Shown here: in pieces, positions 592-24,946 of the stretch
How the letters are laid out: each line of letters opens with the position of its first letter
Position numbering within the stretch: the stretch's first letter is position 1
NCBI RefSeq assembly: GCF_901538265.1
Contig: NZ_LR593886.1
Coordinates: forward strand, 1,178,001-1,242,000
DNA length: 64,000 bases
Source of the DNA: Gemmata massiliana
Lineage (GTDB): Bacteria > Planctomycetota > Planctomycetia > Gemmatales > Gemmataceae
Direction of reading: 5' to 3'
The notes under the pieces: model-generated
Database searches by the model: none
Told to the model about the DNA's origin: nothing
The model's input: only the letters and a program-made list of their open reading frames with translations
Program-made: the position numbers and the translations under genes

Positions 592-1403
592 CTATCCTGT
601 GCTCAAACAGCGGAAACCGAGAATGCCGAACCGGTAGACGGGCGCGAACACGGAGCGACGAGCCGCGCACACGTCTTGCGCGAGGTCATTCCAGCCCCCG
701 CCCCGGATGACACGATCGGCACTAATTCCCATCGGACCCACCGGGTCCACCACACTCGCGGTCGTGTAGGGGCGCATCCCGTCCCGGCACCATTCCCACA
801 CGTTCCCTAGCACATCGTACAGCCCCACCCGTTCGCCCGCTTCTGGCCCACCTCGTGCGTCTCATTTTCAGCGTTCTCCTTGTACCACGCCATCGCGTCC
901 AGATCCCCGTATTGCACACCCGGCGAACCAGCACGACACGCGTACTCCCACTCTGCCTCCGTCGGTAACGCCAGATCCAGCCCCACAGTGCCGCTCAGCT
1001 TTGCCACGAACGCATGGCAATCATTCCAACTCACGCTCTCCACCGGGCAACGCGGATTCGTAAATCGGCTCGGTTTTTTGCCCATTACCGCCGACCGCAG
1101 TTCCTGCGTGCATGGGGTATCGAATAGCCAATAACCACGACTCAGGACCACCTCGTGAATCGGGCCTTCGTTGCTTCGGTGACCTTCCTCCGAATTTGGG
1201 GAGCCCATCTGGAATGAACCTGGTGGGATCCAACGCAACCGCTGCGCAACCCGCCCCTCTGCCCTTGACGAGATGGTGAACTTGACCCACAGGCCGTATC
1301 GGTCTTGGCCCCAAGTTGAGGCCCAAGCGGGAGGGCTGCCGTCCGAGAGTGGGTGTGGTAGCACGTGCGATTCCGTCTGACTTCGCACGAAATGAGGATT
1401 CAT
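592..1403 (-). pseudogene. FGE/SUMF1-domain cassette 4, broken by a frameshift
   Basis: This is a complete formylglycine-generating-enzyme-like domain split over two frames. The upstream part (ATG at 1401-1403) runs through RWIPPGSFQMGSP, LPTEAEWEYACRAG and GQKRANGWG, then leaves frame and stops. The downstream part resumes with GLYDVLGNVWEWCRDG and ends at GFRCLSTG. Comparison with the neighbouring cassette (5-C run versus 4-C run here, 823-826) shows that one base is missing. The domain starts with the same HPLSDG-type lead-in as cassette 3. It is a decayed copy, a silent donor cassette, or an assembly error. The catalytic Cys pair of true FGE is not present. Confidence 0.7.
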
Positions 1404-1515
1404 CTCGTGTTCTTTGTGGCGAAAGAATCGCGCTCGTCGGTCGTGGCCTGTGCGGGCCTTGTCATCGCTCCAACCCGCTTCTTCCTCGCACGTCCCTTTG
1501 CTCTTCAACACGCGA

Positions 1516-2403
1516 TCACTTTCCTGAACTCAAACAGCGGAAGCCGAGGTCGAAGGCTCGGTGGTCGGACCTGTAGGTAAAATGATAGGCTGCACGCACA
1601 TCCTGTGCGTCGCGATGCCACCCCCCGCCTCGAATGACACGATCAGCACTAATTCCCATCGGACCCACCGGGTCCACCACACTCGCGGTCGTGTAGGGGC
1701 GCATCCCGTCCCAGCACCATTCCCACACGTTCCCAAGCATGTCGTACAATCCCCACCCGTTCGCCCGCTTCTGGCCCACCACTCGTGTACCTGCCTTTGT
1801 GTGCGGGTACTGCTTGTTGGGCCACTCAGACGAATCTTCTCCCTCTTCCAGATCGTACTCCCATCCGCTGTTGCCACCATACCACGCAATCGCATCCAAA
1901 CCCGGGGCGTTGTTTTCGCCGACTGTCTTCACATCACCCGTGTACGTCGATGTCGTCGTCCCCGCCCGGCACGCGTACTCCCACTGGGCTTCCGTCGGTA
2001 AACGGCTACCTAGGGCTACGTGACCATTCAAACGCTCCGCGAATTCCTGACATTCCTCCCAACTCACTCGCTCCACTGGGCGGCGCGGCCCTTTGAACCG
2101 ACTCGGGTTCGAGCCCATCACGGCCTCCCACAACTCCTGCGTACAAGGTACGTCGAATAGCCAAAAACCTTGGCTGATTATCACCTTATGAGTCGGACCT
2201 TCATCACGAAATCGTCCTTCTTCTGAGTCCGGTGAACCCATCCAAAAGTGACCCGCTGGAATCCAACGCATCCGTTGCACTAACCAACTATTAGACCCCG
2301 TGGAGATCTCAAACTCTATCCATAGGCCGTGCCGATCTTGCCCCCAGGCCGAGGCCCAGGCAGGCGGGTGTCCGTCCGAGAGCGGGTGTTGTATCACGTT
2401 CAC
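1516..2403 (-). CDS. FGE/SUMF1-domain cassette 3 (single domain, weak start)
   Basis: A full FGE-sulfatase (C-type-lectin-like) domain: RMRWIPAGHFWMGSPDSEEG, LPTEAQWEYACRAGTTT, GLYDMLGNVWEWCWDG, RVIRGGGW, LGFRCLSSGK. The frame is open far upstream (to 2757), but that part overlaps domain 2 of the large gene antisense to no stop, so the domain proper begins near 2403. No ATG lies between the preceding stop (2474) and the domain. The only nearby candidates are GTG codons at 2403 and 2397, without a Shine-Dalgarno match. It could be translated weakly by coupling, or be an untranslated cassette. Long stretches are nearly identical to domain 1 of the upstream gene (around 3790-3960), and the C-terminal third matches cassette 4 instead. 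Confidence 0.6.
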   Translation of the reverse strand: MNVIQHPLSDGHPPAWASAWGQDRHGLWIEFEISTGSNSWLVQRMRWIPAGHFWMGSPDSEEGRFRDEGPTHKVIISQGFWLFDVPCTQELWEAVMGSNPSRFKGPRRPVERVSWEECQEFAERLNGHVALGSRLPTEAQWEYACRAGTTTSTYTGDVKTVGENNAPGLDAIAWYGGNSGWEYDLEEGEDSSEWPNKQYPHTKAGTRVVGQKRANGWGLYDMLGNVWEWCWDGMRPYTTASVVDPVGPMGISADRVIRGGGWHRDAQDVRAAYHFTYRSDHRAFDLGFRCLSSGK

Positions 2404-2473
2404 GATCCGTTTTAATACACAAACGCCGTCATTGAAGCGACGGCGAAGAGAAAGAACTCCAGAGGAAGGCTTC

Positions 2474-5400
2474 TCACTGTCCTGAGAAGCAGCGGAAGCC
2501 GAGGTAACCGTCCCGAATACTAGGCGCGTACGCTGTGCGGTAGGCCGCCCGCGCGTACCGCGCAGGACCGTCCCAGCCCCCTCCTCGGATGACACGATCG
2601 GTACCTGCTTCCCCCGGACCAATCGGGTCTGCCACACTCCCACCGGTGTAAACGCGTTGTCCGTCGCGGCACCACTCCCACACGTTCCCCAGCATGTCGT
2701 ACAGGCCCCATCCGTTCGCCAACTTTGAACCCACCACTCGCGTGCCTGCCCTCGCATCCAGGTACTGCTTCTCCGTCCAACTCAACATTTCCTCCCCCTC
2801 TTCCAGATCGTACTCCCGACCGCTGTTGCCACCATACCACGCAATCGCATCCAAACCCGGGGCGTTGTTCTCCCCAACTATTTCTATGTCACCCGTGTAC
2901 GTCGATGTCGTCGTCCCTGCACGGCATGCGTATTCCCACTGCGCCTCCGTCGGCAACGTCAGCTCCAGCCCTGCTACTTTCTCATTCGCACGCTTCAGGA
3001 ACGCCCCCACGTCCACCCAGCTCACGTTTTCCACCGGGCGACGCGGATCTTTGAATCGGCTCGGGTTCGCACTCATCACCGCCTCCCACAATCCCTGCGT
3101 GCACGGCGTGTCGAACAACCAATACCCCTGACTAATCACCACCTCGTGAACCGGTCCCTCGTCATCCCATCGCCCCTCCTCTGAATCCGGTGAGCCCATC
3201 CGGAACCGACCCGCTGGAATCCAACGCAAACGCTGTGTTACGACCGAATGCTCATTACCACGTACCTCGAATTCTGCCCACAGCCCCAACCTGTCTCGGC
3301 CGATTGCGGTCGCCCAGCGAGGCTGTATGCTCCGCTCTAGGATCAGGTCGTCGAGATCACTGCGGATGCGCACATTCAGTGCCGACGAGAGCGCGAACCT
3401 GTCGGATCTTGCCTCACTCAACATGATCGCGACCGCTCCACCGGACATCTCCATTCCGGGGCCGGGCTCTGCCCCCCGGTCCCGAACACTCACTGCCGTC
3501 TGCGCTCTGGCCGGTTCTATCTCTCCTGAAATCAAGCAACGGAAGCCGTGCATATCGTCCCGGAAGTCTTGCGCGTGCGCCCAGCGGAAGGCCGCGCGCA
3601 CGCACCACGCTATGTTACGCCAGCCGCTCCCCCGAACGACCCGGTCAGTATCAACTTCCGTTGATCCGACCGGGTCCACCACTGACCCGAAGACGTAGGG
3701 ACGCTGACCGTCGCAGCACCACTCCAGCACATTCCCCAGCATGTCGTACAGGCCCCATCCGTTCGCCAACTTTGAACCCACCACTCGCGTGCCTGCCCTC
3801 GCATCCAGGTACTGCTTGTTGGGCCACTCAGACGAATCTTCCCCCTCTTCCAGATCGTACTCCCGACCGCTGTTGCCACCATACCACGCAATCGCATCCA
3901 AACCCGGGGCGTTGAATCTCCCGACGACCATCACATCACCCGTGTACGTCGATGTCGTCGTCCCTGCACGGCATGCGTATTCCCACTGCGCCTCCGTCGG
4001 CAACGTCAGCTCCAGCCCTGCTACTTTCTCATTCGCACGCTTCAGGAACGCCCCCACGTCCACCCAGCTCACGTTTTCCACCGGGCGACGCGGATCTTTG
4101 AATCGGCTCGGGTTCGCACTCATCACCGCCTCCCACAGTCCCTGCGTGCACGGCGTGTCGAACAACCAATACCCCTGACTAATCACCACCTCGTGAACCG
4201 GTCCCTCGTTGTCCCATCGCCCCTCCTCTGAATCCGGTGAGCCCATCCGGAACCGACCCGCTGGAATCCAACGCAAACGCTGCACAATCGACTTCACGCG
4301 GATCGTCGCCCACGGACCGTACTGGTCCTGGCCAAAGTCATCCGCCCAAATGGGGCGGGTGACTTCGCCTTCGGCACGCGCTTTCTGCCAATTATCATCT
4401 ACGCGGAGTATCCGGTTTGTGGTCCGCAGTGAGCCAAGCAGACTGCCAACCCCTCCAGAGTGGTTGGGGGCGACCGGTGAGATCGGCGTGAATGTTAGTT
4501 CGACACCGTACTGACGAATGTCGAAGGTGAGAGCGGTCGGCCCGCGGTCATGTTCTGCGGGATCAAAACCAGGCGAACTCAACTTGCCGTTGGGAAAGCA
4601 CCTCTTTTGCAGCAGCCGGTAGACTGGTCCGGTGCTCGGGTCGGCCCACGCGGTGCCCGGCAGTCGAGACACTGCGCGGCCGACGTAATCCTTCAGCGCG
4701 GCGATCCCGGCAGCCGCTGGTGCGGCGGCCTGCGTGGCAAGATTGTGCAGCGCCAGTCGAGCGTCTTCTTGGTCGACCGACGGCACGAGCCCGCGTGAGC
4801 TCTGGGGCAGCCGGGCCACCTCTTGGAGCCAGACCAGCAAGTCACATGCCTGCCGCCAGGACCTGATCGTCTCCAAAACGACGCGGCGCAGATCCTCGGG
4901 CTCGTGCTCGAACAGTGGGAGTAATACGTCTTTCGCGTGATCCGCGTCGAGTGTTGCGGCCACCGGGTGTTTGCTCACCACTGCCGGGTGCTGCCACAGT
5001 GCCGATTCTAGTGATGCATCGGCGGCGCTGGGGCCGGACAACAGCGTGCGAATAATCCGGAGGAGGCCAGGCTCAAGCCGAATCGCGGGCGCCACAAGAG
5101 TGAGTAGTCGTTCGACTACCCTTTGCCGCTCGTCGGGGTCACGGACAACAGCCTGGGGCAATTTCTGCCCGGAGCAAACTGTAAATGCTCGACGAATCGC
5201 GCTGGGAACCAATTCTGTCGCGCAGGGCACAAGAGCGACGGAGTGGCAACCAGCTTCACGTAATGACTCACCCCATCGGCCCCACGCGGCGTGCAATCCG
5301 TCCCCGCCAGGCTGCAAACAGCCGAGATCGCCCAGAACCAGTACCCGTGTGCCAGAATCTGGGATCTCAAACGGGCGCCGTTCTCCCGGCCGTGCCATCT

Positions 5401-6052
5401 GCCAGAGATCCGGCCCAGGACCTATCCCGATGAATACCTCCAATCCACGCGCCGGGACGAGCCGACGTAACTGGTTGAGGACCGCAACTTGGTCGTCCCA
5501 GTACGGGATCAGTCGGTCGCTCCTGTCGAGAACCACGAGTACTCGCTCACCCCAGCAACTGATTGAACGAACCGGCAAGTCGTGAACGAATTGCCCTTTG
5601 GCAATCCGATCTACGACCCGTTGCCAGTCGATATGGCGCGACCCGATTGAAGCTTGGAGGCCGGCTCGGAGCCTTGGAACTAGACCTGGCCAAGGACACA
5701 GTGGTTGGTGTGCGGGTGGAGTAGCCGGCCTGTTACGCCACTCCAGCCGCCCTGGTTCGGTGGCCACGAGTTCGGCCGTCGGCAGTACGGCTCGCGGCAC
5801 GAGCCGCGTCATTCGCCAGAACGGGATCCGTTGGGCAGACTCAGGCCACTCTCCAATTGGCTCCGGTGGTAGTTTGGGATCGGAAGAGGGAACTAGCTCA
5901 GTTTCGGCCCTCCGAGGGGGGAGCAGCAACGGAACCGGCGCGTGCGCAGACGATTCCCATCCGAGGAACCCCGCGATCAGCTCGGGTGGGGCGCCAGGAC
6001 AAGCCCGAAAAACTTGTGCCAAGTCGGCGTGGCCGACGAAAGACCGTTTCAT
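2474..6052 (-). CDS. vWA-like protein with two C-terminal FGE/SUMF1 domains
   Basis: 1192 residues. Residues 1-560 are an uncharacterised module. Around residue 177 the segment LVVLDRSDRLIPYW resembles a vWA strand with a degraded MIDAS (DRSDR in place of DxSxS), followed by an alternating hydrophobic/helical region. Residues about 570-840 and 925-1192 are two FGE/SUMF1 domains, each with RLRWIPAGRFRMGSP, LPTEAQWEYACRAG and NGWGLYDMLGN. Their N-terminal halves are almost identical at DNA level (about 3000-3230 against 4020-4270), which points to recent duplication or conversion. The FGE catalytic Cys pair is absent (for example GGGWDGPARYARAAYR), so a ligand-binding role is more likely than formylglycine synthesis. 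The start ATG overlaps the MoxR stop as ATGA, implying translational coupling. In MoxR/vWA conflict systems such a protein is the AAA+ partner; that role is inferred here. Confidence 0.8.
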   Translation of the reverse strand: MKRSFVGHADLAQVFRACPGAPPELIAGFLGWESSAHAPVPLLLPPRRAETELVPSSDPKLPPEPIGEWPESAQRIPFWRMTRLVPRAVLPTAELVATEPGRLEWRNRPATPPAHQPLCPWPGLVPRLRAGLQASIGSRHIDWQRVVDRIAKGQFVHDLPVRSISCWGERVLVVLDRSDRLIPYWDDQVAVLNQLRRLVPARGLEVFIGIGPGPDLWQMARPGERRPFEIPDSGTRVLVLGDLGCLQPGGDGLHAAWGRWGESLREAGCHSVALVPCATELVPSAIRRAFTVCSGQKLPQAVVRDPDERQRVVERLLTLVAPAIRLEPGLLRIIRTLLSGPSAADASLESALWQHPAVVSKHPVAATLDADHAKDVLLPLFEHEPEDLRRVVLETIRSWRQACDLLVWLQEVARLPQSSRGLVPSVDQEDARLALHNLATQAAAPAAAGIAALKDYVGRAVSRLPGTAWADPSTGPVYRLLQKRCFPNGKLSSPGFDPAEHDRGPTALTFDIRQYGVELTFTPISPVAPNHSGGVGSLLGSLRTTNRILRVDDNWQKARAEGEVTRPIWADDFGQDQYGPWATIRVKSIVQRLRWIPAGRFRMGSPDSEEGRWDNEGPVHEVVISQGYWLFDTPCTQGLWEAVMSANPSRFKDPRRPVENVSWVDVGAFLKRANEKVAGLELTLPTEAQWEYACRAGTTTSTYTGDVMVVGRFNAPGLDAIAWYGGNSGREYDLEEGEDSSEWPNKQYLDARAGTRVVGSKLANGWGLYDMLGNVLEWCCDGQRPYVFGSVVDPVGSTEVDTDRVVRGSGWRNIAWCVRAAFRWAHAQDFRDDMHGFRCLISGEIEPARAQTAVSVRDRGAEPGPGMEMSGGAVAIMLSEARSDRFALSSALNVRIRSDLDDLILERSIQPRWATAIGRDRLGLWAEFEVRGNEHSVVTQRLRWIPAGRFRMGSPDSEEGRWDDEGPVHEVVISQGYWLFDTPCTQGLWEAVMSANPSRFKDPRRPVENVSWVDVGAFLKRANEKVAGLELTLPTEAQWEYACRAGTTTSTYTGDIEIVGENNAPGLDAIAWYGGNSGREYDLEEGEEMLSWTEKQYLDARAGTRVVGSKLANGWGLYDMLGNVWEWCRDGQRVYTGGSVADPIGPGEAGTDRVIRGGGWDGPARYARAAYRTAYAPSIRDGYLGFRCFSGQ

Positions 6053-7041
6053 GGCGGACTCTCACCGGTTTTCTTGAGTACGAAACCCTTTACCAGAGCA
6101 AGGACATTTTTCGGATCTTCCCCATCCGTGCGGGTAATCTCGAAAACCGCCCGGATCAGGTCCAAATACTCCGCCTGCCCCGGAAGCGGCCGGACCTGCT
6201 TAGCCTGGGCTGCGTTCCGGGCATCTATCAGCAGCCCGGCGGCTTCTTCAAGAATCTCCCGTCTTTGCCTCTGTTGGCCATACTCCTCCGGTGGTGACAA
6301 GAGATCGAGGTGAGCTTCGCCCCGAATTACCAATAGCTCACGAAGAGCCTTTTCTTCCCTGGGGAGTTCCAGATGGAGCACTAAGCAGCGCCGAACAAAA
6401 GCATTTGGCAAAATTCGTTCCTCATTGGTAGTGATGACGACTAGCGGAGCTTGGCCGCTTGCTGAAACAGAGGACTTGCAGTTACGCACCGAAAACGAGC
6501 GGGAGCCTAATGCTTCAAGGAGGCCGTTGGGGACATCCGACTCGGCCTTGTCAATCTCGTCGATCAGTAGCACGCATCCGTCGTCGGGCTCCCACCCCTC
6601 TGGGCCACTCAGCCCCGGGCCGCCAACGACATCCGCCTGTCTGCGGGCCCCATTCCAATCAAAGGCCCACCACAACTTCCCAGGGTGGACGAACCGTTCT
6701 TCGGCGAGTTCTCTGGCGACATCCGCGGGTTTGAATGCGGCGCAGATCTGGGCCTGGGCAAGACGGCCCACCGCGTCGAAGGACCAGAGTAGATCCTGAG
6801 ACTCTGTGCGAGCATCAACGACCACCGACAGGAACGGACGTTTCAGCCATACCGCTGCAGCGCGGGCGAGTTGGCTCTTGCCGACGCCCGGCTCACCGCG
6901 CACGAGCAGTGGGCGGTTAGCTGCGAGAGCCGCTCGGATCGCCCACTGTGATTCGGGGTCAAATAGGTGAACGCTTGGCAGCCTGTCCCCGGTTTTGGGG
7001 ATGAGAACCTGCTGCATAATGTTGCCACTTACGGTGTCCAT
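6049..7041 (-). CDS. MoxR-family AAA+ ATPase
   Basis: 330 residues. Walker A is GEPGVGKS (about residue 50), Walker B is CVLLIDEIDKAE, sensor 1 is the ITTNEER segment, and an arginine-finger-like FVRRC follows. A C-terminal helical lid is present. MoxR ATPases remodel partner proteins, usually with a vWA-domain protein. Here the stop overlaps the start of the vWA-like/FGE gene (ATGA), and the start overlaps the end of the upstream gene by 13 bp, so all three are a tight operon. Inferred role: the NTP-dependent switch that relays sensing by the FGE/vWA protein to the CHAT protease. Confidence 0.85.
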   Translation of the reverse strand: MDTVSGNIMQQVLIPKTGDRLPSVHLFDPESQWAIRAALAANRPLLVRGEPGVGKSQLARAAAVWLKRPFLSVVVDARTESQDLLWSFDAVGRLAQAQICAAFKPADVARELAEERFVHPGKLWWAFDWNGARRQADVVGGPGLSGPEGWEPDDGCVLLIDEIDKAESDVPNGLLEALGSRSFSVRNCKSSVSASGQAPLVVITTNEERILPNAFVRRCLVLHLELPREEKALRELLVIRGEAHLDLLSPPEEYGQQRQRREILEEAAGLLIDARNAAQAKQVRPLPGQAEYLDLIRAVFEITRTDGEDPKNVLALVKGFVLKKTGESPP

Positions 7042-7730
7042 CTCACCCCCGCAACTTTACAAAGCAAGCGATGCAAACGGCTTAGCACCTTTAGCTCCCA
7101 AGCAGTGTCAGACGCCTTTTCAAGACAGATTACCACAACCGACGGAATCATTTCTTGAAGGCGCTCCGCGATTCGCTGCCGGCGCGCGACCGCGGTCGGC
7201 TCCGGCGGATTCGAAAGGACGCAGTAGTATCTGTACGGGTGCTCTCCGCCCTCAAGATGCTCTCGGAGCACCGTCTCGATCAATCGCTCCACACCTGCCT
7301 CTGCCGGCCCCGGGCTTCCGACGGGAAGAAACTTACCGTGCAAGTGGTTCAAAAAATCGGCAAGAAAGACCTCACCGTTCTCATCCAATCCCCCTTCAGG
7401 TGGGGAAGGTAAAAGCAACTGACCACTCGGGAAATCTTTCGCGCTTGTAGGGGGCGGGAATAACGCCGGACGGCTGTCGACTCCCGCCATGATCAATTCG
7501 ATCGAAGCAGCGTACGTTACTGGCAGGGAAACAAATGCCCCAGCCCCGGCTACGATGCTTGTCTTGGCCCGCTGCAAATCGTCGGGACGGTAGACCACCG
7601 GCATCACGCGATAGCACACTTGTTCGATCGCTGTAGCCGCCTTGATGTCATTACCCGACGCCTTCAAGAATGCGCCTACCAGCGCTTTGATTGCATCATC
7701 TGCTGTAGCCCGAACAAGTGCGTCGACCAC
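7029..7730 (-). CDS. Uncharacterised component between CHAT and MoxR genes
   Basis: The first usable start codon is a GTG at 7730, giving 233 residues, but the same frame is open and protein-like up to 8051 (see the separate entry). The visible protein is mixed alpha/beta: an alpha-helical N-terminal part (ATADDAIKALVGAFLKASG), a Pro-rich linker, then an alpha/beta C-terminal part (YRYYCVLSNPPEP, VVVICLEKASDTAWELKVL) typical of an effector-side or adaptor domain. No family is recognised. By position it corresponds to the third component (VMAP-type adaptor) of MoxR/vWA ternary conflict systems, which is inference only. Its end overlaps the MoxR start by 13 bp. Confidence 0.6.
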   Translation of the reverse strand: MVDALVRATADDAIKALVGAFLKASGNDIKAATAIEQVCYRVMPVVYRPDDLQRAKTSIVAGAGAFVSLPVTYAASIELIMAGVDSRPALFPPPTSAKDFPSGQLLLPSPPEGGLDENGEVFLADFLNHLHGKFLPVGSPGPAEAGVERLIETVLREHLEGGEHPYRYYCVLSNPPEPTAVARRQRIAERLQEMIPSVVVICLEKASDTAWELKVLSRLHRLLCKVAGVRWTP

Positions 7731-8006
7731 CCGCTCGCACCGTTCGTGCCCCCCCCCCGTCAGCGGTTCAAGTTTACCTGCCAGCTGCTCAGCGAGAATC
7801 GCAACGGCCTCGTGGCAGTCCTTCAGGGCCTTTACCGTGTCGGTGTGAAGCTGTCGAAACGCCTTGTTAGCTTCGCCCAGCGACGCAACCGAGTTGGTGC
7901 GCGCATTGAGAGACGAGGCTAAGGGGAGCGGAGTAGTGATTGGCGCCGGGGAAACGAGGCCCGCCGCGGGTGGCGCGGCGAAATACGACGAGCCTAAGTG
8001 GGGTTT
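7731..8006 (-). other. Start-less in-frame extension of the 7029-7730 gene, overlapping the CHAT stop
   Basis: The frame of the downstream gene stays open from 8051 to 7730 with no ATG, GTG or TTG. From about 7919 it has clear coding character: an amphipathic helix containing NKAFRQLHTDTVKALKDC and AVAILAEQLAGKLEPL runs straight into the 233-residue protein. The frame is -1 relative to the CHAT gene. At 8006-8000 the CHAT frame reads A AAC CCC, an X XXY YYZ slippery heptamer, two codons before its stop at 7996-7994. A perfect 7-bp GC hairpin (7980-7974 with 7968-7962) lies 19 nt downstream. This is either a programmed -1 fusion, a non-canonical start, or a lost start codon. Confidence 0.5.
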
Positions 8007-9862
8007 AGCAGATATACCTGGGCCGGGTTGACTCCCTGACGCGAGAGCAGCTCAGGAAATTCCTTCTCCGGCATGCCTTCGAGGAGTAGAGCCGCTTTAC
8101 CTTGTTCGAACGCGTCTTTCACCGATGAGCCGAACCCCAATGCACGATAGAATGACGATGCAAAGACAATTGCGCCATCATCTCCAATTTCATCGCTTGT
8201 TCCGATCGCGCAGTCGATATGTTTGACGATCGCCTCAGCCTGAAGTCGGGAGTAGCAGGCATTTAGTACGACCAGCCGAATGTTCCCTTTCATGGTTTGA
8301 AAGAGGTGACTTAACGCAGCTTGAGAAACGGTTTTGGGATAACCGTTCTTGTCCAGCAAGACAAGCTCACCAGCTTTCGAGCCGTGACCACTGAACTGCA
8401 CCACATGGGGCATTTCTTCGTTCAGAGTTTGAAGCAAGTCGTCAGGGCGAACGGCCCACCGAGAGCTGAGTCGAATCGCATCGCGGGAATGCGAGGCGCG
8501 AATTTTCGCCGTGATCTCCCTGATTTCTTCGTCGAGCGCGAGCGCACTTGTTCCGGCTGGGTTGGCGGCAAAGACAACGACCTTGCACTCCGTCGAATTC
8601 CGAGCGGTGGAAGGCAATACTGGAGTAGTCGGGACAGCTTTTCGCCGTTCAAAGGGAGCGAATCTGAGCACCCGCGGCTGGCCCTCGACTTGCCAGCGGA
8701 CCTCGCGCAACCGAGTCTTGCGGACAAAGACATCGCACAGGATACCACCCGCCTCCAAGAGAGCGAGTGCGCGCTGGAGTGCTGTCTGATCGCCCTCAAT
8801 TTGAACGATGGTACTCCCGCTACGAATTTCGATGATCCTCACACGAGAAATATCAAACCCGAGTTCCACGAGAGCGAGGAGAAAATGCGACTCACTGAAT
8901 GATTCGAGAGGCGTGTCGAGAACGAACTCGAATTTTACGATCTGCAAACTTCGATTCGCTGGCTCCATGACTGCTTTAGGAATGGGTAGGGGGGCACTTA
9001 CAAGCTCGCGCAACTCGTCCAAAAGCGTATCGAGTCTATGTTCTTCGGTAGCCCAGTTGAGTATCGCATCTTTCCGTGCTTCGAGATTGAGCCCGCCGGA
9101 AGGGCGCAACTTGAACGGCATGTCCAACAGAAAAATTAGTTCATCGAACTGATGTGATTTCAACTCCCCGAACAGCGCGAGGATCTCTTTTCGGTTTGAC
9201 TTGTCTCCTTGCACTGCGGGCACGGGCTTTGATGATACGGCTTCCGTCGTTGGTTGTGTCAGCGAACCTGTAAAAAATTCTGCGTCCTTTGCCCCATTGG
9301 GGTTAAGGGCGGCACGGTGCGCTTCGAACATCTCATTGCGCTTCCCGGCGACGACTTCTACTCCGGAATATTGTTTTTGCTGTTCGGCTGTCAACCCGGC
9401 GAATGTCGTGGCGTCACAGAGTACCTCACCAGGACGAGCCTTCGCCTCCAGCCGAACGGCACGTGCGATGGTCATGCCACCGATCTCGAAACCGCCACCC
9501 TCTGCTTTGGTCTTGCGCTCCAGCACCAACTCACCCGTGGCAATCCCAATGCGGAACGCACGCTTACCAATACCCACAGGTTTACTATCGCAGTGTGCGC
9601 GGGCAGCCTGCTGCACAGCCTCAGCAAAGGTATGAGCCTGAGTTGGCTGGTCGAAAATGAGTATTGCGCCGTCGCCGGTGGTTTGCACCACTGCAGCCTT
9701 GCGAGTCACACCAGCAGCGACGAGGCCCACATCAACGAACTCCTGAATTTGCCTGTTGAGCGTTAGACTCGTTTCAACCCCCAATCCGTCTTGCAGAGCA
9801 GCAGCGATGGTACTGTAACCGACAAGATCGAGCTCGAGAACGGTCTTGGTCGTCACGGGCAT
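7994..9862 (-). CDS. Class III cyclase-like / EAD / CHAT protease protein
   Basis: The start at 9862 (622 residues) is preferred over the longer ORF because an AAAGGTG ribosome binding site sits about 7 bases upstream. Domains: residues about 5-180 are a class III nucleotidyl-cyclase fold with metal-binding Asp in LELDLVGYS and TTGDGAILIF. The usual transition-state Asn is not obvious in GGMTIARAVRLE, so activity is uncertain. Residues about 222-290 are an effector-associated, death-like domain (KEILALFGELKSHQFDEL). An alpha/beta domain follows, and then CHAT, a caspase-fold protease (about 430-620), with the catalytic His in FSGHGS and Cys in LNACYS. First gene of the operon; CHAT is the likely effector. 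The protein ends naturally at LLNPT. Confidence 0.85.
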   Translation of the reverse strand: MPVTTKTVLELDLVGYSTIAAALQDGLGVETSLTLNRQIQEFVDVGLVAAGVTRKAAVVQTTGDGAILIFDQPTQAHTFAEAVQQAARAHCDSKPVGIGKRAFRIGIATGELVLERKTKAEGGGFEIGGMTIARAVRLEAKARPGEVLCDATTFAGLTAEQQKQYSGVEVVAGKRNEMFEAHRAALNPNGAKDAEFFTGSLTQPTTEAVSSKPVPAVQGDKSNRKEILALFGELKSHQFDELIFLLDMPFKLRPSGGLNLEARKDAILNWATEEHRLDTLLDELRELVSAPLPIPKAVMEPANRSLQIVKFEFVLDTPLESFSESHFLLALVELGFDISRVRIIEIRSGSTIVQIEGDQTALQRALALLEAGGILCDVFVRKTRLREVRWQVEGQPRVLRFAPFERRKAVPTTPVLPSTARNSTECKVVVFAANPAGTSALALDEEIREITAKIRASHSRDAIRLSSRWAVRPDDLLQTLNEEMPHVVQFSGHGSKAGELVLLDKNGYPKTVSQAALSHLFQTMKGNIRLVVLNACYSRLQAEAIVKHIDCAIGTSDEIGDDGAIVFASSFYRALGFGSSVKDAFEQGKAALLLEGMPEKEFPELLSRQGVNPAQVYLLNPT

Positions 9863-9902
9863 GGTGGTCACCTTTCCAGGCGCAAAAAGACGATTCTTTT
9901 TT

Positions 9903-9948
9903 GCCGGAGTTAGTCGGTTAAGGTGGTAGGATCTTTGGCGACTCCGGC
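9903..9948 (-). promoter_or_regulatory. Leader inverted repeat upstream of the CHAT gene
   Basis: GCCGGAGT at 9903-9910 pairs perfectly with ACTCCGGC at 9941-9948, 41 bases upstream of the chosen start. It may be an mRNA leader hairpin or a protein-binding palindrome. Confidence 0.35.
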
Positions 9949-9980
9949 CATTCGTATTTTTTTGTAATGGAAGTAGTAAG

Positions 9981-10012
9981 GTGGATCGCATATCGTCACT
10001 TCAGCGATCCAC
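9981..10012. promoter_or_regulatory. Palindrome GTGGATCGC/GCGATCCAC in the operon promoter region
   Basis: A perfect 9-bp inverted repeat (9981-9989 and 10004-10012) with a 14-nt spacer lies about 120 bp upstream of the CHAT start, in AT-richer DNA. Consistent with a dimeric operator; no regulator gene is in the window. Confidence 0.4.
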
Positions 10013-10234: not shown

Positions 10235-11307
10235 TTAGGTGTTACGCGGTGCGGGCGATCGGGAAGGTGATGTGCGGTCGCGCGAGGTAACTGCGGACCG
10301 CGTCTCGGATGATGGCCGTCTTGGCCTCGACCCAACGGACCCCTCGGGCGAAGCAATGGGCCTCGAACCGGAGGAACGCGCGCAGGGCCAACCCGATGTG
10401 GTTCCGTTGCGCGCGGGCCTTGCGGCATTGGCACCGCTCGACCCCGGTGCATTGCTTGATGCCCCGGTGGTAGTGCTCGATGGCCCACGAGAACTGGGCC
10501 AGTTGCAATCGGGTCAGGTCCGTCATGGACCGGTCGTTGGTAGCCCAGTACACGGTGCCCCCGTCTGGGGTGGCGATCCCGAATACCGTCACCAACCCGA
10601 ACCCGGGCAACCAAACCTGTGTGCCCGTGGCCGCGAGCGCCGTATCCTTCAGGGCCCGGGTGCCCTGCCGGTCCTTGTTCACCAACCGGTTCGACTTGAG
10701 CCGGGTGAGCCAGGTCCACCCGCAGTTGCGGATCAACGTGAGGTTGTCCAAGCTGCCGTACCACCCGTCGAACACCACGCACCGGGGCTTCAAGCCGCGG
10801 GCGTACGCGGCCCGGATCATGTCCCCGAAGTGGTCGTTCTTGGTGCGCCCGTCGGCCGTGTCGTAGATCCGGTAGTCACACGGGATGTGGCGGTCCCCGT
10901 CGGTCCACAGCAGGGACACCAGGTTGATCCCCTGAACGACCGCGCGGTGCTTGCCGGACCAATGCCGGGTCACCAATTCGATGGCTCTGGCATACGGCTT
11001 GTCCAGGGTCGAGTCGTCCACCACCAGCACCCCGTCGGTGCGCCGCACCTGGGGTTCGGCTTCGGTCCAAAGGGTGCCCGGGTCCGGTTCCAGCCGGGTG
11101 AGGAGTCGGGTAAACGCGTCGTGGGCCGGTGGGTCCGTGGCCGCCGGCTGCACACGCGCGGCTTCGGCCCCCGAGTACGTCTTCGGGCTCGCGATCAGGA
11201 AATCGATGTAGTCGCTCGGGAACACCTTGGGCACGCTCATGAACCGATCGTAGAACCGCATCGGTACCCGCGCAAGCACCAAAACGGCCGCGCTGCGTAA
11301 CACCTAA
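10235..11307 (-). mobile_element. IS701-like insertion sequence with 13-bp terminal inverted repeats
   Basis: The ends carry TTAGGTGTTACGC (10235-10247) and its inverted copy GCGTAACACCTAA (11295-11307); similarity continues a few bases inward. One transposase gene fills the element, and its stop codon lies inside the left repeat. About 1.07 kb in total. No unambiguous target duplication is visible. The element separates the CHAT operon promoter region from a tRNA-like fragment and appears intact. Confidence 0.75.
10242..11261 (-). CDS. DDE transposase, IS701-like
   Basis: The ATG at 11261 gives about 339 residues; the longer ORF begins with a GTG inside the right terminal repeat. Catalytic-type Asp residues are in VLVVDDSTLDKP and in CVVFDGWYGSLDN, and a late Glu in FSWAIEHYHRGIKQ fits the DDE triad. 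The DDSTLDKPYA context followed by a GINLVSLLW strand is typical of IS701-group transposases. The gene is full length and looks functional. Confidence 0.8.
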   Translation of the reverse strand: MRFYDRFMSVPKVFPSDYIDFLIASPKTYSGAEAARVQPAATDPPAHDAFTRLLTRLEPDPGTLWTEAEPQVRRTDGVLVVDDSTLDKPYARAIELVTRHWSGKHRAVVQGINLVSLLWTDGDRHIPCDYRIYDTADGRTKNDHFGDMIRAAYARGLKPRCVVFDGWYGSLDNLTLIRNCGWTWLTRLKSNRLVNKDRQGTRALKDTALAATGTQVWLPGFGLVTVFGIATPDGGTVYWATNDRSMTDLTRLQLAQFSWAIEHYHRGIKQCTGVERCQCRKARAQRNHIGLALRAFLRFEAHCFARGVRWVEAKTAIIRDAVRSYLARPHITFPIARTA

Positions 11308-11357: not shown

Positions 11358-11891
11358 CTTCACAATTCATCAGTACCCGATGCTAGTTAGACTTTTTCGC
11401 TTCGTTTAAGCATTTTGTATTCGGTAAGTTTTTGTCATCACGATTAAAAATAATAATTAGTATATAATAATAAATTATAATACTATTAAGTGGTGGCGAT
11501 CCTCACTGATTTGGTGGCACGCGGTAGTCGTCGACCTCATGTGGCCTTGCCAGCGCTGGCGAAACAAACTCTGTCACCGAGCTCGATCGCTCCCAGTGCA
11601 GACAGGGTTCTCAGGACGATCGGAAGGACCCAGGCGCCAGCAATCAAGAATGAGAATCCCCTTCCCTTTGTTCGTGTTCCCACGGGAGGCGATCGTCGAG
11701 TCGAGCGGATTCTGGCGTGGTGGGTTTTGCGGGAGGCGCCAGAAGGGCAGCAAGTGCAGCGCGCTGTTCCGGCGGAAGCGCAGCGAGTTCAGCGAGTAGT
11801 CGGGCGAGGCGAGAAGCGGTATCCGAGTCGGATTGTGGTGCCGGGATGCAAGCGACTACATCGGTGTGCGAATTGTCTTGTTTTCTTAGCG
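11358..11891. other. Gene-poor stretch with a 19% GC segment
   Basis: 11401-11490 has 17 G/C in 90 bases, in sharp contrast to the surrounding GC-rich DNA. The remainder carries only a minus-strand ORF (within 11644-12105) that ends in Ala/Leu-rich sequence (LARLLAELAALPPEQ); it might be the tail of a lost integrase, but its upstream part is antisense to the tRNA fragment. No gene called. Confidence 0.5.
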
Positions 11892-11933
11892 TTTCCAAGG
11901 CGGAGGTCGTAGGTTCAAATCCTACCGCCGCAA
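11892..11933 (+). tRNA. tRNA 3' half (Gly-like), probable right attachment site
   Basis: From an anticodon loop-like TTTCCAA (TCC anticodon would be Gly) through variable loop AGGTC and a perfect T-arm GTAGG-TTCAAAT-CCTAC to acceptor CGCCGCA plus A. The 5' half is missing: upstream bases do not pair with the anticodon stem and no D-arm is present. Minus-strand translation gives GFEPTTSALETL, a hallmark peptide of antisense tRNA ends. A strong terminator hairpin follows 11 bases later, as expected for a native tRNA transcript. This fits the chromosome-side end of an element integrated into a tRNA gene. Confidence 0.6.
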
Positions 11934-11944
11934 CTTCTTTCAAC

Positions 11945-11980
11945 GAAACGCCCCGGTTTGATACCGGGGCGTTTCGCATT
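11945..11980 (+). terminator. Rho-independent terminator after the tRNA fragment
   Basis: A 13-bp perfect stem GAAACGCCCCGGT (11945-11957) / ACCGGGGCGTTTC (11963-11975) with a 5-nt loop, followed by GCATTTTC. Confidence 0.75.
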
Positions 11981-19854: not shown

Positions 19855-20817
19855 TTAACCACCCTTACTCAACAGGTTCTTCTGGATCTGGATGGCCGCG
19901 GGGCCGACCAGAACCACGAAGATCGCCGGGAAGATGAACAGTACCAGCGGGAAGATCAGTTGCACCGCCGTCTTCGCCGCCTTTTCCTCGGCCAGTTGGC
20001 GCCGCCGGGTCCGCATCGAGTCGGACTGGACCCGCAGCGCCTGGGCGATACTCGAACCGAACCGGTCGGCCTGGATCAGGATCGCCGCCAGGCTCCGGAC
20101 GTCGTCCACCCCGGTCCGCACGCCGAGGTCGTGGAGCACCTCGCGCCGGGGGCGCCCCATCTGCAACTGGAGGTTCGCGAGCGAGAACTCCTCACAGATG
20201 GTCTTCGCGTGCCCCTTCATCTCGTCGGTCACCTTCCGCAGGGCCGCGTCCAGGCCGAGCCCGGACTCGACGCACACCACCAACAGGTCGAGCGCGTCCG
20301 GCAGGGTGAGGAAGATCTCCTTCTGCCGGCTCGTCCGCAGGTGCCAGAGCGCGATCTGTGGGAAGTAGAACCCCATGCCCGCGAGCCCCACAGTCCATTC
20401 AATCGACTTCACGGTGAAGCCGTCTTTGAGCAAGAAAAAGAAAAGGGCCGGAAGAAGGAACGCGACTAGGCAAACTACGCGGATGCCCTGGTACACGCCC
20501 GCCGCGTTCTCGCTCCGGAACCCGGCGTTGGCCAACTTGATCCGGAGTGAATTTTTTTCCAGCTCGGTCCCGGGCTCCATCACCCCGCCGAGGTTGCTGA
20601 AGGCGTCCTTGAGCCCCTTGAACCGGCCGCGCGACTCGGCCTGCGACATTTCGATCTCGACCAGCGACTTGGGCCGGCCGATGCGCTCGAGCCGCTCCTC
20701 CGCCTGGCTGTTGCGGTTGGAGATCAGCGAGAGCACCCAGAACGTCCCCGCCATGATCGCGACGAAGACGAGGATCGGGGTCAGGTCCGAGGAGGACAGG
20801 AGCGCGAGCAGTTCCAC
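19855..20817 (-). CDS. tadC: TadC, inner-membrane platform protein of the Tad pilus
   Basis: About 320 residues from the GTG at 20817, which has GGAG about 8 bases upstream; the ORF itself opens at 20907. A GspF/T2SSF domain holds the cytoplasmic helices (LPDALDLLVVCVESGLGLDAALRKV) with transmembrane helices at the start (LVFVAIMAGTFWVL), middle and end (LIFPLVLFIFPAIFVVLVG). TadC pairs with TadB as the membrane base that the CpaF ATPase turns. Located 96 bp after tadB. Confidence 0.85.
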   Translation of the reverse strand: MELLALLSSSDLTPILVFVAIMAGTFWVLSLISNRNSQAEERLERIGRPKSLVEIEMSQAESRGRFKGLKDAFSNLGGVMEPGTELEKNSLRIKLANAGFRSENAAGVYQGIRVVCLVAFLLPALFFFLLKDGFTVKSIEWTVGLAGMGFYFPQIALWHLRTSRQKEIFLTLPDALDLLVVCVESGLGLDAALRKVTDEMKGHAKTICEEFSLANLQLQMGRPRREVLHDLGVRTGVDDVRSLAAILIQADRFGSSIAQALRVQSDSMRTRRRQLAEEKAAKTAVQLIFPLVLFIFPAIFVVLVGPAAIQIQKNLLSKGG

Positions 20818-20913
20818 AGGTGTGTCTCCGGTGCGAAGCAGTGTGAGTATGGGTGCGCGTGACTCGTGCGGGGCGTGCGGGGAACCGGGCCGGTTCCGCC
20901 GACTCACACTTCG

Positions 20914-21873
20914 TCAGACCTTGATGTCCACGATCTTCTTGATGGCGAACGAGCCGATCAGCATGAGCACGATGGCCCCGATCGACATCTTGATCCCCAT
21001 CGGGTCCTTCCAGAGCGTCTCCACGTAGTCCGGCTTCATCCACAGCATCATGACGAACAGGCCGATCGGCAGGGCGATGAGCACGATGCCCGAGAGCCGC
21101 CCTTCCGCGGTCAGGGCCTTCACTTGGCCCAGGATCTTGAACCGCTCGCGGATCACGTGCCCGATGCGGTCGAGGATCTCGGCCAAGTCGCCGCCCGTCT
21201 GGCGCTGGATCGCGACGCTGGTCACGAAGAACCGGAGGTCCAGGTTCGGTACCCGGTCGCACATCCCCTTGAGCGCCTCTTCCAGCGGGATGCCCAGGTT
21301 CTGCTCCTCGTACACCCGGCCGAACTCCTTGGAGATCGGGGCCGGCATTTCCTCGGCCACCACGTGCATCCCGGCGGCCAGCGAGTGCCCGGCCCGCAGC
21401 GCGCGGGCGACGAGTTCCATCGCGTCGGGCAACTGGGCCGCGAACTTCTTCAGGCGCCCGGCGCGCTTGGTGTACAGCCACACCCAGGGCAGCGCGAAGA
21501 ACAGGACCGCGCCGAGCGGCAGCACGTACATGTTCACGAGCCAGATGCTCAGGGCCGCGCCCAGCACGCCCAGCCCGAGCGAGATCCCGAACAGGGCACT
21601 GGGCTTGATGTTGCAGTCCGCCTGCTCGAAGGTCTTCGTGAGGTTGAAGGCCTCCGGCATCAGCTTGTCCATGAGCGTCTTGCGGTCCACCTCCTGGAGC
21701 GCCTGCTTCAGCAGCATGTCGGCCGAGGAGTCCTTCCGCGAGTTCCGCCCGACCAGTTGGTCGAGCCGGTCCGCGGCCGCGCCCTCGTCGCCCCGCCGGA
21801 GCGCGATGTACATCATGGCGACCATCGCGATCACCAAGCCGCCGATCAGGATCGGGAGGAGAATCGGGTTCAT
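20914..21873 (-). CDS. tadB: TadB, inner-membrane platform protein of the Tad pilus
   Basis: 319 residues from the ATG at 21873 (MNPILLPILIGG), where the first transmembrane helix begins; the longer ORF start at 22023 would add an Arg-rich, unlikely leader. GspF-type fold with LPDAMELVARALRAGHSLAAGM and FFVTSVAIQRQTGGDLAEIL, and a C-terminal pair of transmembrane helices. Works with TadC and the CpaF ATPase. Confidence 0.85.
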   Translation of the reverse strand: MNPILLPILIGGLVIAMVAMMYIALRRGDEGAAADRLDQLVGRNSRKDSSADMLLKQALQEVDRKTLMDKLMPEAFNLTKTFEQADCNIKPSALFGISLGLGVLGAALSIWLVNMYVLPLGAVLFFALPWVWLYTKRAGRLKKFAAQLPDAMELVARALRAGHSLAAGMHVVAEEMPAPISKEFGRVYEEQNLGIPLEEALKGMCDRVPNLDLRFFVTSVAIQRQTGGDLAEILDRIGHVIRERFKILGQVKALTAEGRLSGIVLIALPIGLFVMMLWMKPDYVETLWKDPMGIKMSIGAIVLMLIGSFAIKKIVDIKV

Positions 21874-22105
21874 CGGAGTCCACCTGGCGCGGGCGCCCTG
21901 GCCGGGCGCGGGCGCCCGGTGCGTGTGTACGAGTCCCGCCGTCCGTGGCCGCGTCGAGCAAACCCAGTCCCTTCGGGTCCGCGTGTGTATCGGGCGAGTC
22001 GGCACCGGGCGCCGAGCGAACAAGAACCGATCGCTCGCTTTCCACCCGTTCTTCCGTTTCTTCGTAACCCCCGCGTCCGGCGCTCCGCGCCCCGCGGCCG
22101 CCGGA

Positions 22106-23500
22106 TCAGTCGCGCATCAGGACGCGCTCGGCGAACATGTTCGAGGGCAGCTTCACGCCCTTCGACTCGAGCCGGTTGATGAACGAGGGCCGGACCCCGG
22201 TCGCCTCGAACTGGCCGTAGGCGCGGCCGTTCTGGTCGATGCCGAGCTGCTTGTACCGGAACACTTCCTGCATGATGATGATGTCCTGCTCCATGTTCAT
22301 CACTTCCGTGATGTGGGTGATCTTTCGGGGACCGCCCTGGAGCCGGTTCGCCTGGATGATGACGTCGATGGCGGAGCTGACCTGCTGCCGCATCGCCTTC
22401 ACCGGGAGCTCGAACCCGCCCATCATGATCATCGTTTCCAACCGCGTGAGGGCCTCGCGCGGGGTGTTCGCGTGGAGCGTGGCCAGCGACCCGCCGTGCC
22501 CCGTGTTCATGGCCTGGAGCATGTCCAGGGCCTCGGACCCGCGGACCTCACCGATGATGATCCGCTCGGGCCGCATACGCAGGGCGTTCCGCACGCAGTC
22601 GCGGGTGCTCACCGCGCCCTTGCCCTCGATGTTCGGCGGGCGCGTTTCGAGGCGCACCACGTGGTCCTGTTGGAGCTGCAACTCGGCCGCGTCCTCGATC
22701 GTCACCACCCGCTCGTCGCCGGGAATGAAGCTCGACAGCGTGTTCAGGAGCGTCGTCTTACCGCACCCGGTACCGCCGCTGATGAGCACGTTGAGCCGGG
22801 CCTTGATGCACGCCTCCATGAGCATCGCCATTTCGGGCGTGAACGCCTTGTAGTTCAGCAGGTCCTCGAGCTTCAGCGGGTTGGCCCCGAAGCGCCGGAT
22901 GCTGAGGCTCGGCCCGTCCAGCGAGATCGGCGGGATCACCGCGTTCACGCGGGAGCCGTCCGGCAGGCGCGCGTCCACCATCGGGCTGGTCTCGTCCACG
23001 CGGCGCCCGACCTTCGACACGATCCGGTCGATGATCTGCATCAGGTGGTCGTTGTCGCGGAACTTCACTTCCGTCTTCTCGAGCTTCCCGCGGCGCTCGA
23101 CGTAGCACTTGTGCGGGCCGTTCACCAGGATGTCGCTGACCGTCGGGTCTTTTAGCAGGATCTCCAGCGGCCCGAACCCGAGCGTCTCGTCGAGTACCTC
23201 CTCGATCAGTTTCTCGCGCTCGATCCGGTTGAGGAGCGGGTTCTCGGTGTCGCACAGGTGCTCGATCACGCGCCGGATGTCGCGCCGCATGGCCTCGCTG
23301 GAGAGGTCCTTCACGCGCGTGAAGTCGAGCCGCTCCACCAGTTTCGAGTGGATCTGGCGCTTCAGCTCGTCGAAGTTCTTCCCGCCCCCCGGCCCGCCGC
23401 CCATGCTCGGGCTGGACAGGCGCGAGATGCTGCTCGCGCCGCCGCCGCTCGGCCCGTTGAGGCTGTTGAGCTTCGAGATCCCTTGCTGAAGTCGGCTCAT
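22106..23500 (-). CDS. cpaF: CpaF/TadA, pilus assembly ATPase
   Basis: 464 residues, a type II/IV secretion VirB11-like ATPase. N-terminal domain to about 190; Walker [15 protein letters not shown], Asp-box region [10 protein letters not shown], Walker [18 protein letters not shown], His box [15 protein letters not shown]. Hydrolyses ATP in the cytoplasm to extend (and perhaps retract) the Flp pilus via TadB/TadC. Confidence 0.93.
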
Positions 23501-23611
23501 GGTGCATCAGTCCTTGGTCACGGGTCCCAGGGTCGGTGGCGCCGGTCCGGGCGCGGCTCGGTGAGTATCGGGTGCCCCGGGGACGACGGACCGCGGGCTC
23601 CGGGCGAACAC

Positions 23612-24835
23612 TTAACGTTTTCCGAAGAACCCCCAGCCGCCCTTGCTGCCCTTCTGGTCGCCCGGCGCGCCGACCGGTTTGCCGTAGAGCGCCTGGGTGA
23701 GGCCGTAGATGCTCTGCTGGGCGCGGCTCTTGGGCGCGTGCTTCACGAGCGGGTGCCCCGCGACGCGGGCGCCGATTACGGCCTTCGTGTCGTTGGGCAC
23801 CTGCCAGAAGATCGGCTTGCCGATGACCTCTTCGGCCTTCTTCAGGCTGATCCCCTCCTCGACCGAGTCCGAGCCCTGGCGGTTGATGACCACGCGGATC
23901 TTGTCCGCGAGGCCCTCCTCGCCGCTCATGCAGTGGATCAGGCGCACCACGTTCCGCAGGCTGCTCAGCTCCAGTTGCGCGACCAGCATGATTACGTCCG
24001 CCATGCGGAGCGCCATGAGGTCCGTCGGGAGCAGGCACTTGCTCAGGTCCAGGACCAGGTGCGTGTAGCTGATCTTCAACAGGTTGAGGATGCGCTCCAC
24101 GTGCTGTTCGTGGATCGCGCCGACCTCGGCGATCTCGAGCGGGTGGCGCAGGATCGCGAGCCCGGTCGGTTCGTGCTTGGCCATCGCGCGGCGCAGGAAG
24201 TTCATGTCCAGGCGCTCGATGTTCCGGGCCAGGTCCGCGATGCTGATGTTCTCGAACCCGCTCACCTCGAGCGCGATGTCGGCGTCGCCGAGCGTCAGGT
24301 CGAGGTCGATGAGGGCGGCCGAGTGGGTCGGGTCGGCGGCCAGCGTCGCGGCCATGTTGACCGCGAGGGTCGTGGTGCCGACGCCGCCCCGGGAGCCGAG
24401 GACCGCGATCATCGAGGACGAGCCGGTCTGCCGGGCCGAGGCGCTCCCGCCCGCGGTGGGGGCGTCGGAGCCGCCGCTCTCGCCCAGCGCCCGCCGCAGG
24501 GCGGCGAGCATGTCTTCCAGCCCGACCGGGTGCGTCAGGAAGTACTTCGCGCCCTTTTGGAGCGACTGGAGCAGGGCCTGGTGGTCGTGGCTGATGGTCA
24601 GGATCGGCAGCTTCGGGTGCTCCACCGAGAGCTGCCCGATCATCTGAAGGGCCTTGGTCTTGTCCGCGTCGAGGGTGACGATCACGAGGTCCGGCGTGGA
24701 CGCCTGGATCACTTCAAAGAAGTACTCGTACCGGGCGCACTCGGCCTCGAGCCACACGAAGTCGACCCCGAGCAGCAGCGTGCGGAGCGACTCGCGGGTC
24801 GATTCGTTCGGGTCTACGATCGCGACGCGTTGCAT
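23612..24835 (-). CDS. cpaE: CpaE/TadZ, pilus localisation ATPase-like protein
   Basis: 407 residues from ATG 24835; a GTG three codons upstream is an alternative. Residues 1-125 are a receiver-like domain (RVAIVDPNESTRESL, a LVIVTLDAD strand). Residues about 140-390 are a MinD/ParA-like domain whose Walker A is GSRGGVGTTTLA, lacking the signature first Lys and with GTTT in place of GKT, as in TadZ proteins. It places the Tad machine in the cell. Upstream of cpaF. Confidence 0.88.
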   Translation of the reverse strand: MQRVAIVDPNESTRESLRTLLLGVDFVWLEAECARYEYFFEVIQASTPDLVIVTLDADKTKALQMIGQLSVEHPKLPILTISHDHQALLQSLQKGAKYFLTHPVGLEDMLAALRRALGESGGSDAPTAGGSASARQTGSSSMIAVLGSRGGVGTTTLAVNMAATLAADPTHSAALIDLDLTLGDADIALEVSGFENISIADLARNIERLDMNFLRRAMAKHEPTGLAILRHPLEIAEVGAIHEQHVERILNLLKISYTHLVLDLSKCLLPTDLMALRMADVIMLVAQLELSSLRNVVRLIHCMSGEEGLADKIRVVINRQGSDSVEEGISLKKAEEVIGKPIFWQVPNDTKAVIGARVAGHPLVKHAPKSRAQQSIYGLTQALYGKPVGAPGDQKGSKGGWGFFGKR

Positions 24836-24946
24836 AGCCACCACCGAGTCTGTTGTGTCGCGTAGGGGTCGTTCGTGTCGGGTGCCCCGCCGCGGAACCC
24901 GTGAGTCCCGCGGCAGAGGAAAACTAGCACACCTTTTGCCGCCGTG

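Follow-up and report, generated by a model that had tools for sequence, protein, structure and literature searches.

The described systems that come closest to the locus analysed here are of three kinds. In the suicidal integrases of the SSV type, as set out in the part of PMC8371274 that was consulted, attP lies inside the integrase gene, integration splits this gene, and the control of direction is built in; disruption by an integrase of its own gene is described there as restricted to archaea. In the integration-dependent immunity of mycobacteriophages, of which phage BPs is an example, attP sits in a tRNA-targeting core within a coding frame, the C-terminal end of the product is lost and the host junction gives the stop; in BPs integration cuts the repressor gene, and what is removed is an ssrA-like degradation tag (PMC9262239, portion at hand). 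Finally, the tRNA-site islands of tyrosine integrases (Islander type), as far as the accessible part of PMC4383910 describes them, are like our locus in having the core at the 3' end of a tRNA, a restored tRNA at one end, a displaced fragment at the other and the integrase beside the att site. The part of PMC3218068 that was available says nothing on int genes overlapping attP.

The DNA analysed here, referred to as the window, is a stretch of 64 kb (bases 1178001-1242000) of the source genome, Gemmata massiliana, which is a single contig of 10.1 Mb. We believe, giving the explanation as a whole a probability of roughly 0.78, that a tRNA fragment in this window is the right attachment site (attR) of F2, the right-hand member (genome 1164644-1189902, 25.3 kb) of an array inserted by tyrosine recombinases in the initiator tRNA-fMet gene, and that the F2 integrase belongs to a planctomycete family in which the integrase gene is crossed by attP.

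An attachment site at the initiator tRNA gene

The fragment (within 11892-11935 of the window) consists of a T-arm (GTAGG-TTCAAAT-CCTAC) and the 3' strand of the acceptor stem, that is, the 3' half of a tRNA. The 5' half is absent, as an earlier note on this DNA had claimed, since ARAGORN found no complete tRNA in the 64-kb window and Rfam none above its gathering scores. The terminator hairpin that the note had placed after the fragment is there as well (11945-11975, plus strand): its arms (11945-11957 and 11963-11975) form 13 of 13 pairs around a TTGAT loop, and T-rich DNA comes next. The hairpin is the original terminator of tRNA-fMet; the same one, with small differences in the loop, stands directly after the intact tRNA in the same-genus genome G009.

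The fragment carries a 34-bp att core, GGAGGTCGTAGGTTCAAATCCTACCGCCGCAACT (11902-11935, plus strand). Genome bases 1010001-1242000 hold three copies of it on the plus strand, at 1018148, 1164644 and 1189902 (the last being the fragment), and none on the minus strand; when the whole genome was searched, the 34 bases at 100% identity appeared, among the matches listed, only in the same three places. A 96-bp query against the whole genome returned the fragment itself, an identical copy of 38 bp at 1164644 and one of 34 bp at 1018148. Because the core recurs exactly at the two other places, the fragment is not a chance resemblance to a tRNA. At 1018148-1018181 the core closes a complete tRNA-Met(CAT), of which it forms the 3' end. 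This restored tRNA has a C1-A72 mismatch, a feature of initiator tRNAs; the target of integration is the initiator tRNA-fMet(CAT). By sequence comparison, attR departs from the anticodon arm of this tRNA in the ten bases just before the core (11892-11901, plus strand), the element-side arm TTTCCAAGGC. The note had foreseen a full tRNA to the left of the window with a matching 3' end, and one exists; the identity that it had expected, Gly(TCC), was wrong, the tRNA being Met(CAT). Allowing up to 2 mismatches, the genome contains the 17-base stretch TTTCCAAGGCGGAGGTC just once, and therefore no Gly tRNA supplies it.

Comparison with G009 gave the empty site. There the intact tRNA-fMet is followed directly by the same terminator and by the gene found to the right of the fragment in the window. 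We compared both flanks and the insert with the 40 kb of G009 around this tRNA. The 8.2 kb to the left gave two aligned pieces (7.4 kb, 91-92% identity) and the 10 kb to the right two more (9.8 kb, 91-95%); the 171.7-kb insert matched in a copy of the core and one stretch of ca. 1.2 kb at 68% only. The resident chromosome begins at 11936 and extends to the end of the window (11936-64000), its first 10 kb past the core being collinear with G009, in keeping with the earlier description of this side as ordinary chromosome. Within it, at 19855-24844, genes resembling those of Tad/Flp pili were seen by eye.

The insert measures ca. 171.7-171.8 kb, with the restored tRNA at its left end, 171.8 kb left of the fragment, so that the island does reach past the left edge of the window as the note had proposed. 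The middle core (1164644) splits it into F1, of 146.5 kb, and F2, of 25.3 kb, and we regard it as an array in which two or more elements are joined. Both ends carry the 3' end of the tRNA as a direct repeat and an integrase lies beside the att site (PF00589 at 1164944-1165444, beside the core at 1164644), which the note had also predicted to the left; these are features of a tRNA island. The restored tRNA, the exact repeats of the core and the empty site in G009 together identify the fragment as attR, and the view of this site as the attR of an array integrated in the initiator tRNA gene is supported. Nothing was found in favour of the fragment being a decayed tRNA duplication with no link to integration; this reading, to which we give practically no chance, is refuted by the exact empty site of G009, the direct repeats at the element ends and the integrase at the left att.

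Just inside the right end of F2 there is an IS transposase (DDE_5/DDE_Tnp_1, 10242-11303), followed leftwards by the cargo genes for a CHAT-domain protein (7994-9991) whose N-terminal part looks nucleotidyl cyclase-like by eye, a 233-aa protein (7029-7730) with no Pfam match at 0.001, an AAA_5 ATPase (6049-7041) that is presumably MoxR-like, and a 1192-aa protein with two FGE-sulfatase (SUMF1-like) stretches (2474-6052), all on the minus strand. Elsewhere F2 has a patatin-like phospholipase that matches the PADLOC phospholipase effector models (E 6.5e-64), a DnaB_C/AAA_25 protein and a second DDE_5 transposase. The phospholipase, AAA_5, FGE-sulfatase and CHAT genes look like defence or conflict cargo; they are spread over window 807-9991 and L030:4595-8384, and the last three resemble a conflict system. 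The right end of F1 also holds an integrase, with its start adjoining the middle core and a sub-threshold match to PF14659. Two further observations in F1 are overlapping tRNA-like predictions (His, Asn) at 1155048-1155150 (in L029), near an integrase at 1153986, and an inverted pair of two small genes (1094477-1095369 and 1103813-1104705), heat-shock-like by eye, whose first 70 residues are identical as the genes are called.

Integrase ends and their presumed severed tails

The integrase gene of F2 is split in two (1167728-1167150 and 1165681-1164644) with a DDE_5 transposase ORF between the parts. F2 is presumably immobile now, as an IS interrupts its integrase; this copy has no intact integrase gene, which bears on its present mobility and not on its origin. 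The integrase frame runs antisense through the left core and ends ...VAAVGFEPTTSRLLHLNKLLKK, and its PF00589 match lies wholly before the core, so the catalytic domain is not cut. At attR, 25.3 kb away, the frame of the same integrase can be read on (11647-11934, minus strand): it comes antisense out of the core as VAAVGFEPTTS..., continues past the core (11647-11901) as VAAVGFEPTTSALETLRK...RLARLLAELAALPPEQRAALAALL...DDRLPWE..., and ends in GDSHS before a stop at 11644-11646. We call this the severed C-terminal tail of the F2 integrase.

Two more elements of the same genome, P1 (2435134-2476290) and P3 (2519674-2561347), both in the tRNA-Pro(CGG) array, have the same layout, with a left-end integrase that overlaps the core and a tail at the right end. 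P2 and P4, in which the left-end integrase points in the opposite direction, have no tail in their right-end frames, and none was seen at the cores L002, L006, L007 and L017 of this genome. A profile of the tail found in this genome, with the 20 best candidates scored, only F2, P1 and P3 at E 1e-4 or better.

The tRNA-Pro(CGG) site itself (2435134-2638837, L031-L041) holds five att fragments on the same strand within 204 kb. An integrase accompanies most of them, and the whole is a row of different elements, of which P2 and P5 look phage-like by eye, at a single tRNA gene. One att in it (L003, 2561347) is chimeric, with the anticodon arm of tRNA-Pro(CGG) joined to the T-arm and acceptor end of tRNA-fMet; ca. 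20 bp are common to both tRNAs, and it seems that an element with an attP of the fMet type entered a Pro-type site. At other tRNAs there are pairs of tRNA genes or 3' fragments with an integrase, some 25-112 kb apart, for Lys (L110/L118), Asn (L115/L111), His (L114/L129) and Pro GGG (L011/L012), which are probably islands too.

The integrated state was also examined in relatives. An integrase profile made from a two-sequence alignment gave no matches, and a 20-sequence profile was used instead on public genomes and viral contigs; the 87 integrase loci considered are the best 80 of 195 by this profile plus 7 of 8 from a second search, the weakest (L331) being omitted. The record titles obtained with the 20-sequence profile name Planctomycetota or groups of planctomycetes, three loci being titled Candidatus Kuenenia. 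Seven of the 87 (best 80 of 195 plus 7) are cut by a contig end. An intact antisense tRNA, of 11 isotypes in all, overlaps the 3' end of the integrase ORF in 58 of these 87 best-scoring and additional loci, and in 40 of the 58 the ORF stops inside the tRNA (24 with TGA), in 2 flush with its end and in 16 beyond it. Most integrated elements of this sample thus take the last residues of the integrase and its stop codon from the host tRNA. In 23 of the 58 the stop falls 14-15 bases before the 5' end of the tRNA, where the antisense of the D-arm would be expected to offer a TGA.

Reading frames across the core and spread of the tail

We compared 10 tails and 8 integrase ends from this genome, G044, G063, G012 and G079. 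In all six testable pairs (F2, P1, P3, G044:C17, G044:C6 and G063) the integrase frame and the tail frame are open and agree in their phase with respect to the core, with phase 0 in five of them and phase 1 at both ends of G044:C6. The six are not fully independent, P1 and P3 being closely related, and phase 0 is anyway the commonest among integrases (33 of the 45 scored). No core match was found for the two tails of G012 or for either end of G079:C163. The integrase frame of G079:C422 ends short of the core, and its nominal phase is unlike that of the tail. Among 32 tails examined, 23 have a recognisable T-arm within 110 codons upstream, and in 21 of these 23 the frame is open across the core; between core and module, 7 of the 23 lack any start codon and the remaining 16 have one or more.

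Searching from the side of the tail, we found integrase, core and tail fused in one frame at three loci, L382 (G079), L383 (G065) and L424 (G415, with a tRNA-Ser-like core), each with PF00589 by Pfam. The N-terminal part of the integrase is shifted or missing from the fused frame in the three of them, for which reason they look decayed, and among the fused frames with a core we saw no intact, uninserted gene. The tail of L382 is followed by a small gene starting MGWE, like one just inside the right end of P3, and its gene order is the one expected at a circle junction. In L421 (G166) an integrase frame of 569 aa has the module (E 4.4e-5) as its end, without a core. Given these three open frames and the integrase of L421 that ends in the tail, the integrase gene apparently contains attP, so that integration would take away the tail and spare the catalytic domain. 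From the integrase side, a profile scan of open frames gave no in-frame fusion in the 87 loci (best 80 of 195 plus 7); three of these 87 best-scoring and additional loci have an adjacent tail, all out of frame. One, L249, is the same record as L235 (G079:C163), where integrase, core and tail are adjacent and the tail is in the +1 frame by eye; L306 and L307, two near-identical Planctomyces MAG contigs, have a contiguous integrase, core and tail, again with the tail in +1. Among plasmid and phage records we found no fusion; the matches there were partial and confined to the integrase part.

The out-of-frame loci bear on an alternative in which the element has the tail as a small gene in its own right, such as one for a recombination accessory protein, that overlaps the 3' end of the integrase and the core, sometimes in frame, and whose start integration would still cut off. 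Besides the +1 tails of L306, L307 and L235, the tail frame of L306 has available an ATG with GGAG upstream, just before the core, and a possible start codon lies between core and module in the 16 tails mentioned above. Against it stand the equal phase of all six pairs, the single open frames of L382, L383 and L424, and the attachment of the tail to recombinases in other contexts, that is, to the coreless integrase of L421 and to a serine-recombinase-like ORF in L384 (G047:C14) that also ends in the module. We therefore consider a separate gene unlikely. The presence of the same tail on L384 suggests, moreover, that the module works with unrelated recombinases.

Tails similar to that of F2 are found behind the antisense cores of other tRNAs, in relatives and across the phylum. 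With a 30-sequence profile of the module and a limit of E 1e-4, 75 of the 392 genomes of the phylum gave a match, with the 20 best candidates scored per genome; this count is without curation by eye, and may hold a few false matches and miss others. A broader list of tails (E up to 0.5) served to find loci and not to count. Of one set of tail matches, inspection by eye retained L141, L154, L142 and L144, the others being mostly core-only, and left out L146, by its look a tail without a core. The tail counts also omit L162-L169 (six of them RdgB/HAM1-like, two unclear), L173, L182, L186, L188, L191, L194 and L197, and are without L196, L199, L201 and L202.

The codons of the tail appear to evolve as coding sequence under purifying selection. 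Between F2 and G012 there are 20 differing bases in 38 codons, of which 16 are at codon position 3 (dN/dS 0.07), and between P1 and P3 dN/dS is 0.16 for the module and 0.41 for the whole. These genomes have many long antisense frames that are spurious, for example the tail-bearing frames L363 and L368, which have no visible integrase upstream (by eye), and this could speak for the tail frame being a meaningless by-product of GC-rich DNA, the antisense of the T-arm being open by chance. Such a reading has very little to recommend it in the face of the codon-position pattern just given, the homologous module behind the cores of several different tRNAs and the matches throughout the phylum.

The tail has no convincing match to a known family in Pfam, NCBIfam or PHROGs, the best for the window tail being a weak one to a PHROG minor tail protein (3.6e-4), and we recognised no report of such a tail among the open-access papers searched. 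AlphaFold, run on the single sequence of the window tail, places helices at residues 36-51 and 55-65 (pLDDT ca. 60-82 there, mean 62, pTM 0.27), a model that we take only as support for a hairpin. The helix-turn-helix shape, predicted with low overall confidence, suggests a contact with protein rather than a degradation tag.

A possible switch and its known counterparts

The preferred reading, an integrase gene crossed by attP, leads to the following model. In the uninserted element a single frame would code for the catalytic domain, a linker, the antisense of a tRNA 3' half (the att core), another linker and the helical-hairpin tail. Recombination at the core would leave the tail at attR, at the other extreme of the element, and would fuse the integrase with the antisense strand of the restored tRNA, from which it would usually get a new C-terminus and a stop codon. 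The circular element would then make a tailed integrase and the integrated one a tail-less form, and loss of the tail could bias the element towards staying integrated or tune the stability of the enzyme. The insertion with its empty site, the geometry, the frame shared by the two ends of six elements, the fused frames elsewhere and the conservation of the tail are direct observations. That planctomycetes have here a switch that senses integration, in which attP lies between catalytic domain and tail, only the circle makes the tailed enzyme and integration makes the tail-less form, is a proposal to which we would give slightly under even odds. About as tentative is the idea that the tailed protein carries out integration and that loss of the tail lowers excision or otherwise sets the direction.

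If true, this would be a bacterial counterpart of the suicidal integrases in which the catalytic domain is kept and direction is possibly set without a separate excisionase, and a widespread trimming of bacterial integrases by integration would offer a natural and testable control of the direction of recombination. It would also explain why these integrases have C-termini that end in short stretches of antisense tRNA (GFEPTTS..., DLNPRPLAPQAS...). As a practical marker, the tail points to the far end of an island.

The insertion seems here to cut off a piece of the integrase gene, something uncommon among bacteria. Compared with the Islander-type islands, as they are presented in the accessible part of PMC4383910, our locus differs in the initiator tRNA as target, in the array totalling 171.8 kb and in the integrase frame that goes through the core to a conserved tail. 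In the SSV-type integrases the N-terminal part is parted from the catalytic part (PMC8371274, part consulted), whereas here the host is bacterial and the loss would be limited to a C-terminal tail, with the catalytic domain left whole. The SSV-type domain Phage_integr_3 (PF16795) was not matched, PF00589 being the only integrase domain above threshold, and the host is not archaeal. In phage BPs, going by the portion of PMC9262239 at hand, the gene that is cut is another one; at our locus the integrase takes its place, and the F2 tail, for which a helical hairpin is predicted, lacks a final LAA. An att site within the integrase gene, as in the former system, and an attP in a coding frame that loses its C-terminus, as in the latter, are suggested by the frames shared at element ends and by the fused frames, but the out-of-frame tails of L306, L307 and L235 and the fused core copies that are not intact speak against both. 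The arrangement is assigned to neither group, and in its logic it resembles both the suicidal integrases and integration-dependent immunity.
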